NCBI GenBank assembly: GCA_021808285.1
Contig: JAKBBV010000023.1
Coordinates: forward strand, 1-41,022
Reading direction: 5' to 3'
Source: Pseudomonadota bacterium
Lineage (GTDB): Bacteria > Pseudomonadota > Alphaproteobacteria > Caulobacterales > Caulobacteraceae
DNA length: 41,022 nucleotides
Within the stretch, counting starts at the first letter, position 1, and each line of letters starts with the position of its first letter. A program made the position numbers and the translations under genes. A model generated the notes under the pieces. It did no database searches, had not been told where the DNA came from, and worked only from the letters and a program-made list of their open reading frames with translations. Shown here piece after piece: positions 29,960 to 36,278 of this stretch.

Positions 29960-30613
29960 ATGACCAGCCGCCCTCCGCCTGCCGATGACCCCGGGCCCCG
30001 CCTCATCGCCCGTATTCTCCACGATATCGCAGGGCCGATATCGGGCCTGACTACAGCGGTGGATCTGCTCTCCGATGAGACCCAGTCCGCCCTGCGGCCG
30101 GAGGCGATCACCCTGGCGCGGGACAGTCTCGCCCGACTGGCCGAGAAAATCGCGTTCTTTCGCGCTGTATTCGCCGAGTCGACGAACCCCACGGGGGACA
30201 CCTTTGGCGAGCTGGCGTCCGCTCTGTTCGCCGGTTCCCGGATCGAGCTCAATGCGACGCCTTTGCCGCCAGACGCCCCGGCCGAAATGGCGAGGGTCCT
30301 GCTCATCCTGTTGCAGATATTGGGCGAGGCCCTGCCCTCCGGCGGCGGGATAGCGTTCACGGCGGACGTCACGACGCAGAGTTGCATTGGGGCCCTGGTC
30401 GGGTCTGGACCGCGCTTGAGGCTGCGCGAGGAAAGCCGGCTCGGCCTCGCCGCAGCCCCCGCGCCCGCGACTCTCACCGCCCGCTGGGCGCCCGCCGCCC
30501 TGGCGCGCCTACTGGCCGATCGTGCGAAGGCTCAACTCATCGTGGAGGAGAACCAGGAGAGCCTGGGGTTTCGCTTGGTTTGGCCCCATGCTTCCGCCGA
30601 GATCACGGTTTAG
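29960..30613 (+). CDS. chpT: Histidine phosphotransferase, ChpT family
   Basis: A 217-residue protein with the ChpT layout: a DHp-like helical hairpin with phospho-acceptor His21 (IARILHDIAGPISGLTTAVDLL), then a degenerate ATPase-like domain (ILGEALPSGGGI, SGPRLRLREES) with no N-, G- or F-box. In Caulobacter ChpT carries phosphate from CckA to CtrA and CpdR, controlling the cell cycle. There chpT (CC_3470) lies close to the stress-response genes, as here, which supports orthology. The sequence is nevertheless rather diverged: HDIAGPISG replaces the more usual HDFISP. The stop overlaps the convergent entericidin-like gene by 11 bases. Confidence 0.78.
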   Translation: MTSRPPPADDPGPRLIARILHDIAGPISGLTTAVDLLSDETQSALRPEAITLARDSLARLAEKIAFFRAVFAESTNPTGDTFGELASALFAGSRIELNATPLPPDAPAEMARVLLILLQILGEALPSGGGIAFTADVTTQSCIGALVGSGPRLRLREESRLGLAAAPAPATLTARWAPAALARLLADRAKAQLIVEENQESLGFRLVWPHASAEITV

Positions 30614-30814: not shown

Positions 30815-32509
30815 TCAGCCGGTCGGCGGGGAAGCCTCCATATCCCCCGCCAAGGGAAAGACGAGCGTGACACGAAGACCTTCCTCGTCGGCCACAAGAG
30901 TCATCTGGCCCTGCATCTGGCGCGCGAAGGCCCTCATCAGCACCTGACCGATGCCATCATTGAGCGCTGCGCCCGCGCACCCAGGACCGGTTGGGTCGGC
31001 GAGAGACAACGTCGCGATGGTCCCGTTCGCTGATATCCGGGCCTCCAAGGCCCCGCCATCGCGAGCATATCCGTAGCGCCGGGCCAGAGTGACCGCCTCG
31101 ACCGCGAAGAGCGCAAGGGGTGCGAGCCGATCCGGGTCCAGTTCCAGCGGATCCACCTCAAGTCGGATATGAGCCGGGGGCGCGCCCTCCGCGGATACGA
31201 CATGCGAGATCAACTCCTCCATGAACTGGCGCAAGTCGATCCTTCTGAGATCGGCGCCTTGATAGAGCGCCCGGTAGATGAGAGCCAGGGCCGTGATGCG
31301 ATGTCGCGTGTCGGACATCGCGGCCCTCGCCGCAGGATCCGTGAGAGACCTTTGTTGGAGGCTCAGAAGCGAGGAGATGACCTGGAGATTGTTCCGTACC
31401 CGGTGATGAATTTCGCGCATCAGCGCGTCTTTCTGCTTCAGGCTTTCCTTGAGGGCCTGATCTCTGGCGGCGATCAACCTCGCCATGGCGTCCATTGTCG
31501 TCGCGAGGTCTCGAATCTCCGGAGGACCATCGCGCGCCCGTTGCGGACGTGCGCCATATCGCCCCCGGGCGTAGAGGGCCGTGAACCGGCGCAGGTAGAT
31601 GATCCAGCGCACAATGCTGCGATCGGCCACGAGCCAGACAGCGCCCAGACCAAAGACCAGTGCCGCGACCGGTAAGGCAACCGCCAGGATCGGGTTTGTC
31701 AGGGCAAAGGAAAAGACGTCGTTCGGCGCCGAAATCACGACGATGACGTCTTCGCCCACAAGGGGCGCCGCGGCGAAGACCCGACCCTCGCGCGCCCGAC
31801 TACGCGCCTGCCACAGGAACGAGCCCATTCGCACCCGGCGAACGATGTCGGGCTTCAGGCGCTCCGGAAATGCCGACGCGTCGGTGCTTGATATGTATCG
31901 ACCGGAGGCATCTGCGATCGCCACCTCAGAATGCGCTGGCGCGCCGGCAGGTCGCGCCGGCCTGAGACTTGAGAGTGAGAGCACAGCCGTCAGGACGCCA
32001 CTGAAGTGACCTGCACCATCCTCATCTCGAAAGCTGGCGATGATTGACGGCGTGTCGGCGTACGGCACCCCGGGTTCGGCCGTTATGGTGATGGCCTGAC
32101 CCGAGGCGAGGGCGCGAAACCAGGGTCTGTCCCGACGCCACGGGTCGGCAGGGGCGCCCACCGCCGAACAAGCGACCCGGCCGATGGAATCGAATCGAAT
32201 GAGATTCGCAAATCCCGTCAGTCGATCGCGAATTTCAGCAAGCCTTTGGGCGCAGTCGACCCCGACGTCGCCAGGCGCGAGCGTCTGGAGAAGCACCTGG
32301 CCCGCCAGCATTCGGCCCCTGACGCTTGCGGCGCCGCGCTGGGCCGCATCGACAAGCTCTGTTCGACGCTCGCTCATTTCGAGCCGGTAGTTGGCGAGGG
32401 ATAGTCCTGTTCCAAGCAACAGTAGGGGCCCCAGTCCCAGGGCCAGGGCCAGGGCCAGGCGCAGCCGGATCGACGCCCAAGTCCATCCCATTGCAAGGTG
32501 TGACGCCAT
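30815..32509 (-). CDS. phyK: PhyK-type sensor protein of the general stress response (HisKA_2)
   Basis: A 564-residue membrane sensor encoded with ecfG and nepR. Helices at about 13-38 and 272-296 flank a periplasmic sensor domain. A cytoplasmic linker leads to the HisKA_2 dimerisation domain with MREIHHRVRNNLQVISSLLSLQQR; the phospho-acceptor is His368 or His369. The ATPase-like domain is abnormal: at the N-box, EAVTLARRYGY has Leu475 where Asn is expected. This fits reports that Caulobacter PhyK passes phosphate to PhyR as a phosphotransferase and does not act as a kinase. The TGATG junction with ecfG implies coupled translation. Confidence 0.92.
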   Translation of the reverse strand: MASHLAMGWTWASIRLRLALALALGLGPLLLLGTGLSLANYRLEMSERRTELVDAAQRGAASVRGRMLAGQVLLQTLAPGDVGVDCAQRLAEIRDRLTGFANLIRFDSIGRVACSAVGAPADPWRRDRPWFRALASGQAITITAEPGVPYADTPSIIASFRDEDGAGHFSGVLTAVLSLSSLRPARPAGAPAHSEVAIADASGRYISSTDASAFPERLKPDIVRRVRMGSFLWQARSRAREGRVFAAAPLVGEDVIVVISAPNDVFSFALTNPILAVALPVAALVFGLGAVWLVADRSIVRWIIYLRRFTALYARGRYGARPQRARDGPPEIRDLATTMDAMARLIAARDQALKESLKQKDALMREIHHRVRNNLQVISSLLSLQQRSLTDPAARAAMSDTRHRITALALIYRALYQGADLRRIDLRQFMEELISHVVSAEGAPPAHIRLEVDPLELDPDRLAPLALFAVEAVTLARRYGYARDGGALEARISANGTIATLSLADPTGPGCAGAALNDGIGQVLMRAFARQMQGQMTLVADEEGLRVTLVFPLAGDMEASPPTG

Positions 32510-33114
32510 CAGCGCGAACCGCTCAGGCGCTCCGCCTGAGCGAGGATGGTGTCGATCGCCCCAAGGGCCGGGGCGCCGTCGCGTTGATAAGCGCCGCGCT
32601 CAAGGATGTCGTGAAGCGCGCGCCTCGCCCGGCTCACGCGGCTCTTCACGGTTCCGACAGCGCAACCGCAGACCTGAGCCGCCTCCTCGTACGAGAAGCC
32701 GCTGGCTCCCACGAGAATGAGAGCCTCCCTCTGTTCCGCCGGCAAGGCGGCCAGGGCTTGGCGCAGTTCGTCCAGCTCTAGGGTGGCGGAGGGATCGTCC
32801 GGGGCAATGAGGCTTCGTTCCGCGGTTTCCGGATCGAGCGAGGTCTGCCGCCACGAGCGCCGCTTCTCCGAATAAAAGAGGTTTCTCAGAATCATGAAGG
32901 TCCAGGCCTTCATATTGGTCCCCATGCGAAAGCTCGATCGCGCCGACCACGCCTTCAAAAGCGTGTCCTGCGCGAGATCATCGGCGGCCACCGCATCGCC
33001 GGTCAGGGTCCTGGCGAAGGCGCGCATCTGAGGGATCAATGTGATCAGTTCGGATCTGAAGGGGTCACTGTTGGAGGGGGGCGTGAGAGTCGGAACCATG
33101 CCGTCGCGCTTCAT
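32509..33114 (-). CDS. ecfG: General stress response sigma factor EcfG/SigT
   Basis: A 201-residue ECF sigma factor of the EcfG group, called SigT in Caulobacter. Region 2 is MRAFARTLTGDAVAADDLAQDTLLKAW with RNLFYSEKRR; region 4 is LAALPAEQREALILVGASGFSYEEAAQVCGCAVGTVKSRVSRARRAL. It should direct transcription from GGAAC/CGTT promoters and be held inactive by NepR. The ATG overlaps the nepR stop (ATGA), so translation is coupled; a second ATG five codons later is possible. Its operon carries a matching promoter, implying self-activation. Confidence 0.96.
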   Translation of the reverse strand: MKRDGMVPTLTPPSNSDPFRSELITLIPQMRAFARTLTGDAVAADDLAQDTLLKAWSARSSFRMGTNMKAWTFMILRNLFYSEKRRSWRQTSLDPETAERSLIAPDDPSATLELDELRQALAALPAEQREALILVGASGFSYEEAAQVCGCAVGTVKSRVSRARRALHDILERGAYQRDGAPALGAIDTILAQAERLSGSR

Positions 33115-33320
33115 TCGGCTCCGTCCTCACGGGCCGACCGCGCACCGTCAGTTGGGCTCGCTGAGTCGGCGGTCCGAAGGATGTCCAGGAACTCCTCCGG
33201 CACCGCTTCATTGACGACGTCCTCGAAGATTTGCCGGAGACCTGCGCCGATGGCCTGCTGTCTGAGCCTCATCTCGGCCGCGTTCTTAGGCGTCCCTCTA
33301 GTCACGGCCCGGGCCCCCAA
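33111..33320 (-). CDS. nepR: Anti-sigma factor NepR
   Basis: A NepR-type anti-sigma factor, at most 69 residues. The two short helices that clamp EcfG, or PhyR when it is phosphorylated, are in QQAIGAGLRQIFEDVVNEAVPEEFLDILRTAD. The start is uncertain: the open frame allows TTG at 33320, GTG at 33305 or ATG at 33272. The ATG leaves only a few residues before helix 1, and none of the candidates has a well-placed ribosome binding site. It is the first gene of nepR-ecfG-phyK and overlaps ecfG by four bases. Confidence 0.9.
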   Translation of the reverse strand: MGARAVTRGTPKNAAEMRLRQQAIGAGLRQIFEDVVNEAVPEEFLDILRTADSASPTDGARSAREDGAE

Positions 33321-33378
33321 TCCTCGTCATTCTAACGATCCCGCGACCAGCCTCGATTCTGAGGCATGCTCCGCGGCC

Positions 33379-33404
33379 GGAACGTTCGGCTTTCCTATCG
33401 GGTT
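33379..33404 (+). promoter_or_regulatory. Possible overlapping sigma-EcfG promoter facing phyR
   Basis: On the plus strand, GGAAC (33379-33383) is followed after 17 bases by GGTT (33401-33404), one mismatch from CGTT. It overlaps the minus-strand promoter almost base for base because the block GGAACGTT...GGTTCC is nearly palindromic. It lies about 110 bases before the phyR start. Confidence 0.45.
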
Positions 33405-33406
33405 CC
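33381..33406 (-). promoter_or_regulatory. Sigma-EcfG promoter for nepR-ecfG-phyK
   Basis: On the minus strand, GGAAC (33406-33402) and CGTT (33384-33381) are separated by exactly 17 bases, a perfect match to the EcfG/SigT consensus. Transcription would begin roughly ten bases further on, ahead of every possible nepR start. This predicts that the sigma factor activates its own operon. Confidence 0.85.
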
Positions 33407-33511: not shown

Positions 33512-34315
33512 ATGACCCTTATCTCGACCATAGCCCCGCACGTTCCCTATCTAAGACGCTATGCCCGGGCGCTTCTAGGCGAACAAGGCGTGGCGGACGC
33601 ATTCGTCCGATCCGCTCTTCAGGCCCTGGCGGCAGGCGAGCGGACCCCGCCAGCGGGCGCCAATGCCCGGACCGGGCTGTTCTGCATCTTCCATGGGGTT
33701 TTGGAGGCGTCCGGTATGCCCCAGACCCCTGGGAGTGGGCCGCTTTCGAGCGAGGACCTGGGGCCCGTTCAACGGCTTCAGCGGATCGCGCCACCATCTC
33801 GACAGGCCTTCCTGCTGACGGCGCTCGAAGGATTCTCGATCGAGGAAACGGCGCAAGTTCTCGCTGTGGCGCCATCGCGAATCGAGCAGTTGATCGCCCG
33901 AGCGCAACGCGAAATTGACGCGGAACTGGCCACCGAAGTGCTGATCATCGAGGACGAGGCCGTCATCGCTGCGGACATCGAGGCGCTCGTTCTGGACCTT
34001 GGACACCGGATCGGGGGCGTCGCGGCCTCACGAACGGAGGCGGTCTTACTCGCCAGAGAGAGGCCGCCCGGGCTCGTGCTCGCCGATATTCAGCTTGCCG
34101 ACGGCTCATCAGGCATCGACGCCGTCAAGGACATCCGCTCTTTAGCCGACGTCCCGGTCATCTTCATCACGGCCTTTCCCGAGCGCCTTCTTACAGGAGA
34201 GCGGCCCGAGCCGACCTTTCTGATCACCAAGCCGTTCCAACCCGAAACCGTGAAGGCCGCGATCGGCCAGGCCCTGTTCTTTCACCCCCGGCGCCGCGAA
34301 GCCGGTAGCGACTGA
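33512..34315 (+). CDS. phyR: General stress response regulator PhyR
   Basis: A 267-residue PhyR: an EcfG-like N-terminal domain (1-138, including APPSRQAFLLTALEGFSIEETAQVLAVAPSRIEQLI) fused to a receiver domain. In the receiver, Glu147-Asp148, phospho-acceptor Asp192 (VLADIQLADGSSG), Thr220 (FITAFPERLLTG) and Lys240 (ITKPF) are all present. When phosphorylated, the sigma-like domain binds NepR and frees EcfG. AGGA lies three bases before the ATG at 33512. It is divergent from nepR. Confidence 0.96.
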   Translation: MTLISTIAPHVPYLRRYARALLGEQGVADAFVRSALQALAAGERTPPAGANARTGLFCIFHGVLEASGMPQTPGSGPLSSEDLGPVQRLQRIAPPSRQAFLLTALEGFSIEETAQVLAVAPSRIEQLIARAQREIDAELATEVLIIEDEAVIAADIEALVLDLGHRIGGVAASRTEAVLLARERPPGLVLADIQLADGSSGIDAVKDIRSLADVPVIFITAFPERLLTGERPEPTFLITKPFQPETVKAAIGQALFFHPRRREAGSD

Positions 34316-34344
34316 AACCACCCGGCCGTCCCGAAAGGACTGCC

Positions 34345-34668
34345 TTACCTCCGCCCGCTGGCGAAGACCGCGCCAATGACAAACCCAACGCCGAGAGCGA
34401 TAAAGGTCGCGGTCACCGGCTGTGCGTTGACCTGTTCGACCAGCACCCTCTGCGCCTCATCCATCGAGGTCTTGGCCGTCTCGCCGTAACGACCCGCACG
34501 GGACATCAGCCGCTCGAGATTCTCCCGAATCAGTTTCTCGCTCTCCCTCAGCCGTTGCTCGGCGCGCCGCGCGGCCTCGGCGAGCACCTTCTCCGCTGCG
34601 GCGAGGGCTTCGGCGATCGCCTCACGGCTGGCTGTCTCTGGGGTCGCTTTAGAGGTGTCGGCGTTCAT
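34345..34668 (-). CDS. ElaB/YqjD/DUF883-like membrane-anchored protein
   Basis: A 107-residue protein with a long amphipathic, probably coiled-coil region (about 15-75, with AEKVLAEAARRAEQRLRESEKL) and one C-terminal transmembrane helix (QPVTATFIALGVGFVIGAVF) ending in ASGRR. This layout is that of the ElaB/YqjD/DUF883 family, inner-membrane proteins that in E. coli associate with ribosomes and accumulate in stationary phase or stress. GGAGG five bases before the ATG is a strong ribosome binding site. It lies convergent to phyR. Stress control is plausible, but no EcfG motif is seen upstream. Confidence 0.82.
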   Translation of the reverse strand: MNADTSKATPETASREAIAEALAAAEKVLAEAARRAEQRLRESEKLIRENLERLMSRAGRYGETAKTSMDEAQRVLVEQVNAQPVTATFIALGVGFVIGAVFASGRR

Positions 34669-34829
34669 TTGGGCCTCCGGAGCACATCATGGGGTCGCGC
34701 GAGCGGCGCCGGGCGTCGGACGCCTCACGCCACCTGAAGATAGAGGCCCCTGCGCCACGGTTCAAAGCCTTCTTCCCCGGAATGGCGCATCGCCCTTGGC
34801 TTTGAGCGACGAAGCCTTAGGTTGAAATC

Positions 34830-36278
34830 ATGGAGACGCCTCAATTCGCGTCGGATGCATTGTCGGCCAACTCCTTGGCGGAAAGGGTGCTTTCGGCCAC
34901 CGGAATGGTGGAAGCCTTCTGGGATTCGCGGACGGACTGCCTGCTCGTGAGCTCGCGCCTGGCGGCGCTGACGGGCTTTGACGAAGGCGCCGTCCCTGCG
35001 GTCCGAGGCTTGGCCCTGGCTCCGTTTTTGCCGGCCGCGGACCGGGATGAGGCGCGCCTGGCCATCCGTCGGGTCGCCGCAGAGCGGTGCAAATGCAACC
35101 TTGAGTTCCAGTTCGCCAGACCTGGAGGCGGACTCCAAAAGCGGTTCGAGGCGACGCTTGCCCCGGTCGAGGATGCATTTGGACAACTGGTGGGCATCGC
35201 GGGCCTGTTGCGGGAGCTTCCCAACTCCGTCGAGGCTGTCAGCGAACTGACCGCGTGGCCCGCCGCGCTTCCTCCGTCCGATGCGGCCGTGGAGCATGAC
35301 CATCGTGTCAAGAACCTCCTCTCGGCGATCCAATCTCTGGCGACGCTGTCAGCTCGATACTCGGCCTCAACGGAGGAATGTCTCAGTGCGTTCTCGAGTC
35401 GCGTCGACGCCTTGGCCGCCGCCCATAGCCTTCTGACGGCCAAGGGATGGCGGGGCGCGGAGCTATCAGAGGTCGTAGAGATGATCCTCGGGCGCCTGCC
35501 GGAAGGGCGAGCGGCCTGGGGCGGCGTCTCGGTGCAGGTCTCACCCAAAGCGATCAACGCCCTCGCCTTGGCTTTGCACGAGCTGACTCATCACGCCCTT
35601 CTTCATGGCGCCCTTTCGCTCGCTTCCGGCCGCATCGATGTCCGATGGCGAGACACCACCGGAGGCGGTTTCGAGATCGAATGGCTGGAAACCGGCGGTC
35701 GCGCGGCGACAGAGTCAAGCTTTGGCTTTGGCAAGACCTTGTTTGAGCGTGTCACCGCCCGGGAAATCCAGGGAGAGGCGACGGTCTCCTTTGCCAGTAA
35801 TGGGGTTCGAGCCCTTCTGAGGGCGGGCGTCTCATCGCGCATGCGGCCCGTGAACGCGGCCGAATCTCCGGCGAGCGCCGAGGATGAAGTCGATGGCGAG
35901 TCCTCAGGTGGAAGCGGGCCGGCGGACATCAGGGGCGTGCGCATTCTTCTGGTAGAGGACGCGGTCCTTCTCGCGCTTGAGTTGGAGACGGGACTCGTCG
36001 CCGCTGGCGCCGAAGTCGTGGGCATCGCGTCCACCCTTCAGGAGGCGGAGGCGTTGATGGGGCTCGAGTTTGACGCCGCCGTACTCGATACGAATCTAAA
36101 CGGGGACTCGGTCGCACCCATCGCCGCCGCGCTGCTTGCCAGGGGCATCCCCTTCATCTTCGCGACGGGCTATCGGGAGTCAGCGGGTATCATAGGAGCC
36201 TTCGAAGCGCCGGTGGTCCGCAAGCCCTACAATGTTCACCAGATCGCGGCCGCAATCCGCGCTGCGCGCCAGACTTGA
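34830..36278 (+). CDS. PAS-HWE kinase-like-REC hybrid protein with altered N-box
   Basis: A 482-residue soluble protein. Residues ~20-135 resemble a PAS domain. The HWE-type DHp has His158 in EHDHRVKNLLSAIQSLA. The HWE ATPase domain keeps ALHEL (248-252), WLE (285-287) and GFGKTLFERVTAREIQGE, but the N-box reads HELTHHALLHGALS, with His255 in place of the conserved Asn. A linker leads to a receiver (369-482) with Glu376-Asp377, Asp420, Thr446 and Lys465; its FATGY (444-448) marks the FATGUY receiver class found in single-domain stress regulators. It may shuttle phosphate between receivers without using ATP. It sits beside the stress-response genes. Confidence 0.85.
   Translation: METPQFASDALSANSLAERVLSATGMVEAFWDSRTDCLLVSSRLAALTGFDEGAVPAVRGLALAPFLPAADRDEARLAIRRVAAERCKCNLEFQFARPGGGLQKRFEATLAPVEDAFGQLVGIAGLLRELPNSVEAVSELTAWPAALPPSDAAVEHDHRVKNLLSAIQSLATLSARYSASTEECLSAFSSRVDALAAAHSLLTAKGWRGAELSEVVEMILGRLPEGRAAWGGVSVQVSPKAINALALALHELTHHALLHGALSLASGRIDVRWRDTTGGGFEIEWLETGGRAATESSFGFGKTLFERVTAREIQGEATVSFASNGVRALLRAGVSSRMRPVNAAESPASAEDEVDGESSGGSGPADIRGVRILLVEDAVLLALELETGLVAAGAEVVGIASTLQEAEALMGLEFDAAVLDTNLNGDSVAPIAAALLARGIPFIFATGYRESAGIIGAFEAPVVRKPYNVHQIAAAIRAARQT

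Follow-up and report, generated by a model that had tools for sequence, protein, structure and literature searches.

A SkaH-type hybrid protein with a degenerate N-box beside the general stress response genes of a member of the Caulobacteraceae

In the published account of MrrA, this regulator relays phosphate from several kinases, the HisKA kinase CC2874 among them, to PhyK and LovK, both of which take phosphate from MrrA and still relay it when they carry mutations in the G1/G2-box, that is, in the ATP pocket (PMC5964349). The same account reports that Caulobacter PhyK does not autophosphorylate, that LovK is both a phosphotransferase and a phosphatase for LovR and drains MrrA, and that the reason for the well-conserved CA domain of PhyK and LovK, which are without autokinase activity, is unclear (PMC5964349). 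PhyT, which has a degenerate ATPase domain, is described as handing phosphate from SdrG to PhyR (PMC5898713), and the FATGUY motif is reported from intermediary receivers, for example that of CckA, with its role given as unresolved (PMC9981736).

The closest described protein to the one considered here is SkaH (CC_3560), known from holdfast control. As reported, the D550A mutation of SkaH abolishes LovK(H180A)-dependent repression of hfiA, whereas H285A has no effect; the partners of SkaH are LovK and SpdS, and in two-hybrid experiments its receiver was needed for LovK binding and aided SpdS binding (PMC6530869).

Identity of the hybrid protein

The stretch of DNA analysed here (the window; 41,022 nucleotides from a member of the Caulobacteraceae) carries chpT, phyK, ecfG, nepR, phyR and a DUF883-like gene, followed by the gene for a hybrid protein (Table 1), so that the stress-locus setting given in the preliminary description was borne out. 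The best match of this protein in the Caulobacter vibrioides genome was L157 of strain DSM 9893 (E 2.3e-88 versus 1.1e-44 for the next match), which, read from its first ATG, encodes 612 residues with H82, H285 and D550. The residue numbers are those of the published SkaH mutants H82R, H285A and D550A (PMC6530869), and we therefore assigned the family to SkaH, the basis of the identification being residue numbering and species. The only further HWE/HisKA2 protein found in the window's own genome is PhyK. By sequence comparison, the hybrid is identified as an orthologue of Caulobacter SkaH, a described hybrid HWE kinase.

The C. vibrioides orthologue shares with the hybrid the domain order PAS, HWE, receiver, a FATGY receiver and a DUF883-like neighbour, and its His-to-Asp spacing is 265 residues versus 262. 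It differs in that its N-box, HELAVNAVRYG, is intact, in that 127 more residues precede the phospho-His (612 versus 482 residues in total), and in that no phyR match lies within 9 kb upstream of it, whereas phyR of the window ends about 0.5 kb from the hybrid gene. A unique architecture was ruled out by the orthologues in Caulobacter and Phenylobacterium, as was a new PhyK paralogue, the hybrid scoring 20.5 bits against NF051872 (cut-off 750) and phyK being a separate gene. The hybrid gene could not be linked to CC3569 of the MrrA paper, from whose text SkaH/CC3560 is absent (PMC5964349).

Table 1. Features of the stress locus and of the hybrid protein, in window coordinates
Feature	Position	Strand	Basis
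chpT	29960..30613	+	PF10090, 64.5 bits (cut-off 22.9); NF046025, 89.6 bits (below cut-off)
phyK, with Leu for the N-box Asn at residue 475	30815..32509	-	NF051872 is best model, 598.8 bits (below cut-off of 750)
ecfG-type sigma factor gene	32509..33114	-	Assigned from Pfam domains and gene position; none of the specific NCBIfam models at cut-off
nepR open frame, start codon unsettled	33111..33326	-	Counterparts 45-75% identical, in same place in relatives
Divergent, overlapping EcfG-type promoter-like sites in nepR/phyR gap	33379..33406	.	Pattern match; number of matches in window at chance
phyR	33512..34315	+	NF006623, 331.1 bits (cut-off 240); PF22029, PF22233, PF00072
DUF883-like small protein gene	34345..34668	-	PF19029, 15.4 bits (below cut-off); often beside hybrid in relatives
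SkaH-like PAS-HWE-receiver hybrid protein, 482 aa	34830..36278	+	Intact frame, Pfam, motif script, orthologues
PAS domain, residues 57-130	34998..35219	+	PAS_4, PF08448, E 5e-6
DHp domain, residues 153-226 (codon of phospho-acceptor His158, 35301-35303)	35286..35507	+	PF07536
CA (ATP-binding) domain, residues 227-335	35508..35834	+	Window-only changes in excess; W-x-E 285-287 and GFG 299-301 kept
Degenerate N-box HELTHHALLHG, residues 250-260	35577..35609	+	Motif script, alignment
Receiver domain, residues 372-476 (D420, PFIFATGY, K465)	35943..36257	+	Pfam, motif script, alignment

When 60 relatives were searched with the protein, 42 of them gave matches (E 1e-10 or better), a count that includes paralogues. 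Apart from the window's own, the genus comprised 15 genomes, of which 12 had a match at E 1.7e-80 or better, and G003, G004 and G008 had none at E 1e-30. The best loci in GTDB named genomes, among the matches listed (80 loci kept), were those of Caulobacter and Phenylobacterium.

In a Pfam search of the hybrid, HWE_HK (PF07536) matched residues 155-221 (E 1.8e-19); among the 99 aligned rows, 98 carry the phospho-acceptor His158 and the remaining one has a gap there. A motif script placed DHRVKN, which includes His158, at residues 157-162, WLETGG (285-290) and GFGKTLF (299-305) in the CA domain, and LVED (374-377), VLDTN (418-422, with Asp420), FATGY (444-448) and RKPY (464-467) in the receiver; the phospho-acceptor His158, the W-x-E motif, the glycine loop and all of the receiver residues, FATGY included, are thus kept at the positions at which they had been described. 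Among the residues expected of an active HWE kinase, the hybrid has the phospho-acceptor His with R-x-x-N, the N-box His-Glu and W-x-E, and lacks the N-box Asn (for Mg-ATP) and the Lys or Arg that goes with it, which are replaced by H255 and L258. Of a FATGUY receiver it has PFxFATG(G/Y), the acidic pair, the Asp, the Thr and the Lys, and its Response_reg match, over residues 372-476, scored 16.7 bits, under the cut-off of 30.2.

The solved receivers closest in sequence were SdrG (5ieb) and 2lpm, which we take to be Sma0114. The PFxFATGY receiver is shared with the FATGUY single-domain regulators MrrA, SdrG and Sma0114, but in the hybrid it is fused to a DHp-CA unit. The hybrid can also be set beside CckA, which belongs to the HisKA family. 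CckA-type hybrid kinases likewise carry a C-terminal receiver, with a FATGUY-like motif, that passes phosphate on; CckA differs from the hybrid in being described as an active hybrid kinase that starts its phosphorelay (PMC9981736). An AlphaFold model of the hybrid (mean pLDDT 83.4, pTM 0.55) had ordinary PAS, DHp-CA and receiver folds, and its top Foldseek matches were the Brucella LOV-HK structures 6ph4 and 5epv; the relative placement of the domains in this model is unreliable and was left unused.

The degenerate N-box

The N-box of the hybrid carries two changes, Asn255 to His (codon 35592-35594) and Lys258 to Leu (codon 35601-35603). The preliminary description had recognized the first of these, which the motif script and the alignment both confirmed, and had overlooked the second. 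HELTHHALLHG of the hybrid pairs with YELATNAVKYG in the sequence of the Brucella structure 5epv. Since the first N-box Asn of HWE/HisKA2 kinases is reported to be already replaced by Glu (PMC12148442), the Asn lost in the hybrid is the remaining one.

Of the 99 aligned rows, 97 carry Asn in column 255; the window protein is the only one with His, and L167, a broken frame, has a gap there. After identical DHp+CA rows were collapsed (n=95), there were 93 Asn, one His and one gap. Column 258 held Lys in 89 rows, Arg in 9 (one being the misaligned L167 fragment) and Leu in the window protein only, so that with L167 left out Lys or Arg stood in 97 of 98 rows. These counts include four frames without an aligned receiver (L165, L166, L168 and L185) as well as the frame-broken L167 and G020, and also G005, which a contig edge cuts short. 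The nearest relative, G001, whose hybrid is 54% identical, has Asn at 255. A single-base sequencing error was excluded as the cause, because two residues are changed and the codon of Leu258, CTT, differs at all three positions from both Lys codons, which one misread base cannot account for.

A looser survey of HWE/HisKA2 proteins (57 rows, with frames caught by a regular expression) found departures from Asn in the window hybrid and four PhyKs only; 48 rows were read as Asn by the expression and 3 unparsed rows by eye, and 1 row was misparsed (L217, in which “G” was an error of the expression and which has Asn in the PhyK alignment). The preliminary description had named common tolerance of His at this position in the HWE subfamily as a finding that would undo its reading. 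Across the 99-row alignment, the PhyK alignment and the 57-row survey, the hybrid and the four PhyKs (plus the broken L167) were the only proteins without Asn; on these rows, His as a frequent HWE variant at position 255 was rejected. In the portions of text returned by open-access literature searches of more general aim, no SkaH-type protein was described as having a degenerate N-box. The degenerate N-box is the sole peculiar feature of the hybrid, its architecture having been described already.

We compared constraint on the four domains in a set of 65 of the 99 rows, made up of the window, G001 and 63 further orthologues; 16 rows were dropped by name (fragments and frameshifted, contig-end, duplicate or paralogous sequences), and the others fell beyond a cut-off placed at L162. 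At columns at least 80% conserved in the 63 others, changes found only in the window stood to changes found only in G001 as 11:1 in the CA domain (binomial p=0.006, uncorrected for four domains), 3:2 in DHp, 1:0 in the receiver and 3:0 in PAS, and the CA ratio was 17:4 (p=0.007) with a conservation cut-off of 50% and 7:0 (p=0.016) with one of 95%. In these alignments the CA domain is the only one with a significant window-only excess over G001. The terminal branches of the window and G001 measured 0.945 and 0.361 in CA, 0.333 and 0.372 in DHp, 0.48 and 0.314 in the receiver and 0.735 and 0.452 in PAS. A Fisher contrast of CA with DHp plus receiver was not significant (p=0.25). The CA excess of the window relative to the whole protein ranked sixth of 57 branches, and its DHp, with a ratio 1.61 times the median (rank 14), was also somewhat on the fast side. 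Conserved columns that had changed in both the window and G001 numbered 15 (of 42) for DHp, 4 (of 51) for CA and 7 (of 59) for the receiver; the receiver has 47 columns with 95% conservation across relatives, of which 3 were changed in both and not one in the window alone. This pattern among the domains fits relaxed constraint on ATP handling with the phospho-sites kept, although it is not proof.

Possible routes of phosphate through the hybrid and PhyK

The chief interest of this genome is that both of its detected HWE/HisKA2 proteins, the hybrid (His255) and PhyK (Leu475), have lost the N-box Asn. The assembly (2.91 Mb, 105 contigs, 97.75% complete, so that a further HWE kinase could be missing) gave these two proteins in searches with PF07536 and PF07568 (E limits of 0.001 and 0.1, respectively), and no HWE/HisKA2 protein with an intact N-box was found in it. 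G001 likewise has two HWE/HisKA2 matches; in the other 14 genus members, PF07536 has no match in G003 and 3 to 10 in the remaining 13, and PF07568 has 1 to 11. Asn stood at this N-box position in 20 of 24 distinct PhyK sequences, and the other four had Glu (G015 and G005), His (G001) and Leu (the window); loss of the Asn thus recurs in PhyK, and among SkaH rows it is seen in the window protein alone. One-sided changes between the PhyKs of the window and G001 (CA 7:2, DHp 2:3) were a weaker version of the pattern in the hybrid.

LovK appears to be absent from the genome, given that only two HWE/HisKA2 proteins were found. The genome has 25 HATPase_c matches (not all of them kinases) and 28 receiver matches, and among these are a RegB/RegA pair of the SpdS/SpdR type (419.9 bits for a cut-off of 350 and 298.1 bits for one of 250) and a single-domain FATGUY-type regulator (FCTGY) at 8180-8524 of contig C27 (minus strand), so that the genome offers candidate donors from other families than HWE/HisKA2 as well as a candidate hub. 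The C27 regulator, with 2lpm and SdrG as its nearest PDB entries, is the best hit of SdrG in this genome and a possible counterpart of MrrA/SdrG; its own counterpart in C. vibrioides has the Asp at 58 from the first Met, versus 53 in MrrA.

We consider it probable that this skaH orthologue has lost the CA residues that hold Mg-ATP (N255H and K258L), makes no phosphate itself and carries phosphate between partners on its His and Asp. Loss of ATP use is likely, judging from sequence, and the direction and partners of transfer that we set out are those that seem most likely. A kinase outside the HWE/HisKA2 family would phosphorylate the FATGUY receiver of the hybrid, of the C27 regulator or of both; the phosphate would then move to DHp histidines (His158 of the hybrid, or PhyK) and from there onward to PhyR, or would run in the reverse direction and be drained. 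The likeliest reading is a kinase-dead SkaH passing on or draining phosphate that other kinases supply, because PhyK and LovK are published phosphotransferases that do not need the ATP pocket and because, in one assay, the Asp of SkaH is needed and its His is not. PhyK and LovK of Caulobacter and PhyT of Sphingomonas melonis share an HWE/HisKA2 DHp with the hybrid, and the ATP pocket is unneeded in the first two and degenerate in PhyT, as the N-box is in the hybrid; the hybrid differs in having a FATGUY receiver of its own, and the available descriptions of the three do not present them as hybrids. A kept W-x-E, GFG and Glu251 argue against a dead kinase, since by sequence they leave nucleotide binding possible; His can also bind metal.

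The preliminary description had proposed a shuttle from receiver to histidine serving PhyK/PhyR, which is plausible by analogy, being partly precedented; the His of SkaH was dispensable in the published assay (PMC6530869), a result that does not favor a His-Asp shuttle. A phosphatase or sink role fits the hybrid as well as transfer to PhyK/PhyR does. Our estimates for the favored reading and its rivals overlap, a dead kinase being common to several of them. It is a tentative and rather doubtful extension that the whole HWE/HisKA2 complement of this small-genome lineage (PhyK and SkaH, the two of them encoded at the stress locus) has lost ATP catalysis and that SkaH is a fused receiver-histidine shuttle fed by HisKA-family kinases; if so, the general stress response would be left without any kinase of its own family. 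Two detected HWE/HisKA2 proteins without the N-box Asn and with their phospho-sites kept amount to a natural loss-of-function experiment, from which we predict that the alphaproteobacterial general stress response can draw on kinases outside this family, and that SkaH-type hybrids are able to serve as phosphate relays or drains.

It is rather unlikely that the hybrid acts only through D420 and the binding of kinases, as SkaH does with LovK and SpdS, with His158 as a relic. Such a role would agree with the effect of D550A and the lack of one with H285A in SkaH and with the part of its receiver in LovK and SpdS binding, as published (PMC6530869), with the RegB/RegA pair encoded in the genome and with the 0 of 47 highly conserved receiver columns changed in the window alone; against this, His158 is kept, DHp shows no real excess of window-only over G001-only changes (3:2), and the partner LovK is apparently absent. 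We think it unlikely, and a little more so, that a kinase-dead hybrid strips PhyR or an MrrA/SdrG-like receiver of phosphate and dampens the stress response, like Caulobacter LovK-LovR. In EnvZ, N347 is the equivalent N-box Asn, and the N347D mutant is reportedly kinase-minus and phosphatase-plus, with reverse phosphotransfer. LovK, as phosphatase for LovR and drain of MrrA, is a further precedent (PMC5964349), but sequence gives no direction of flow, and SkaH is nowhere called a phosphatase in the parts of the SkaH literature searched.

That the hybrid is still an ordinary ATP-dependent kinase, with His255 standing in for Asn, is improbable: W-x-E, GFG and Glu251 are conserved and the PhyK of G001 also has His for the N-box Asn, but the loss is double (N255H and K258L), Asn fills column 255 in each of the 97 other rows without a gap there, changes are in excess in CA, and Caulobacter PhyK, from the family in which Asn loss recurs, is reported not to autophosphorylate (PMC5964349). 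Gene decay starting with the CA domain is just as improbable: the small genome with only two HWE/HisKA2 proteins, the excess of changes in CA and the divergence of DHp in both the window and G001 speak for it, but the frame of 482 codons is intact, the receiver is well conserved and the gene order is kept.

Gene neighborhood and EcfG-type sites

We examined 18 stretches around hybrid matches from 17 genomes of relatives. The order phyK-ecfG-nepR-phyR, then the DUF883-like gene and the hybrid, was found in 10 of them (G001, G014, G010, G015, G011, G012, G009, G005, G021 and G020), with chpT in 8 of the 18 and ftsK in 7. Of the other 8, four lie on contigs of 4-10 kb (G002, G013, G007 and G023), and a phyR match was absent from four stretches of 19.5 kb (G006, G030 and both places of G034, one of which is a paralogue). 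On contig C3 of G020 (L050:8178-10071), the hybrid gene is split in two frames, a possible frameshift or assembly error.

The preliminary description knew of no described protein with this combination at the general stress response locus. The architecture is that of SkaH as published (PMC6530869), and the same architecture does occur beside phyR elsewhere: among the matches listed, phyR lies 2.5-6.6 kb before the hybrid at 37 of 58 named loci, which places SkaH, known from another process, near phyR. The remaining 21, again among the matches listed, had no phyR match (tblastn, E 1e-60); 9 of these have at least 8.8 kb of upstream sequence, the C. vibrioides loci L155 and L157 included, and 12 have 31 to 6,716 bases.

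For EcfG-type sites we used the pattern GGAAC-N15-17-CGTT, which we take to be the appropriate one. The placement of the window's own sites between nepR and phyR suggests a function. No match to this pattern was found ahead of the hybrid gene as a promoter in the window, and in relatives the sites are on the opposite strand. Among the matches listed, 55 of the named loci L106-L162 have at least 1 kb upstream, and all of these but L131 (54 of the 55) have an EcfG-type site within 1 kb upstream of the hybrid on the opposite strand, as compared with 3 strand-hits in 384 downstream 1-kb control blocks. Neither the window (33830-34829) nor G001 has such a site upstream of the hybrid. In those named loci in which a divergent DUF883-like gene was found, the sites point towards it, and this gene looks like a member of the stress regulon that has lost its site in the window.
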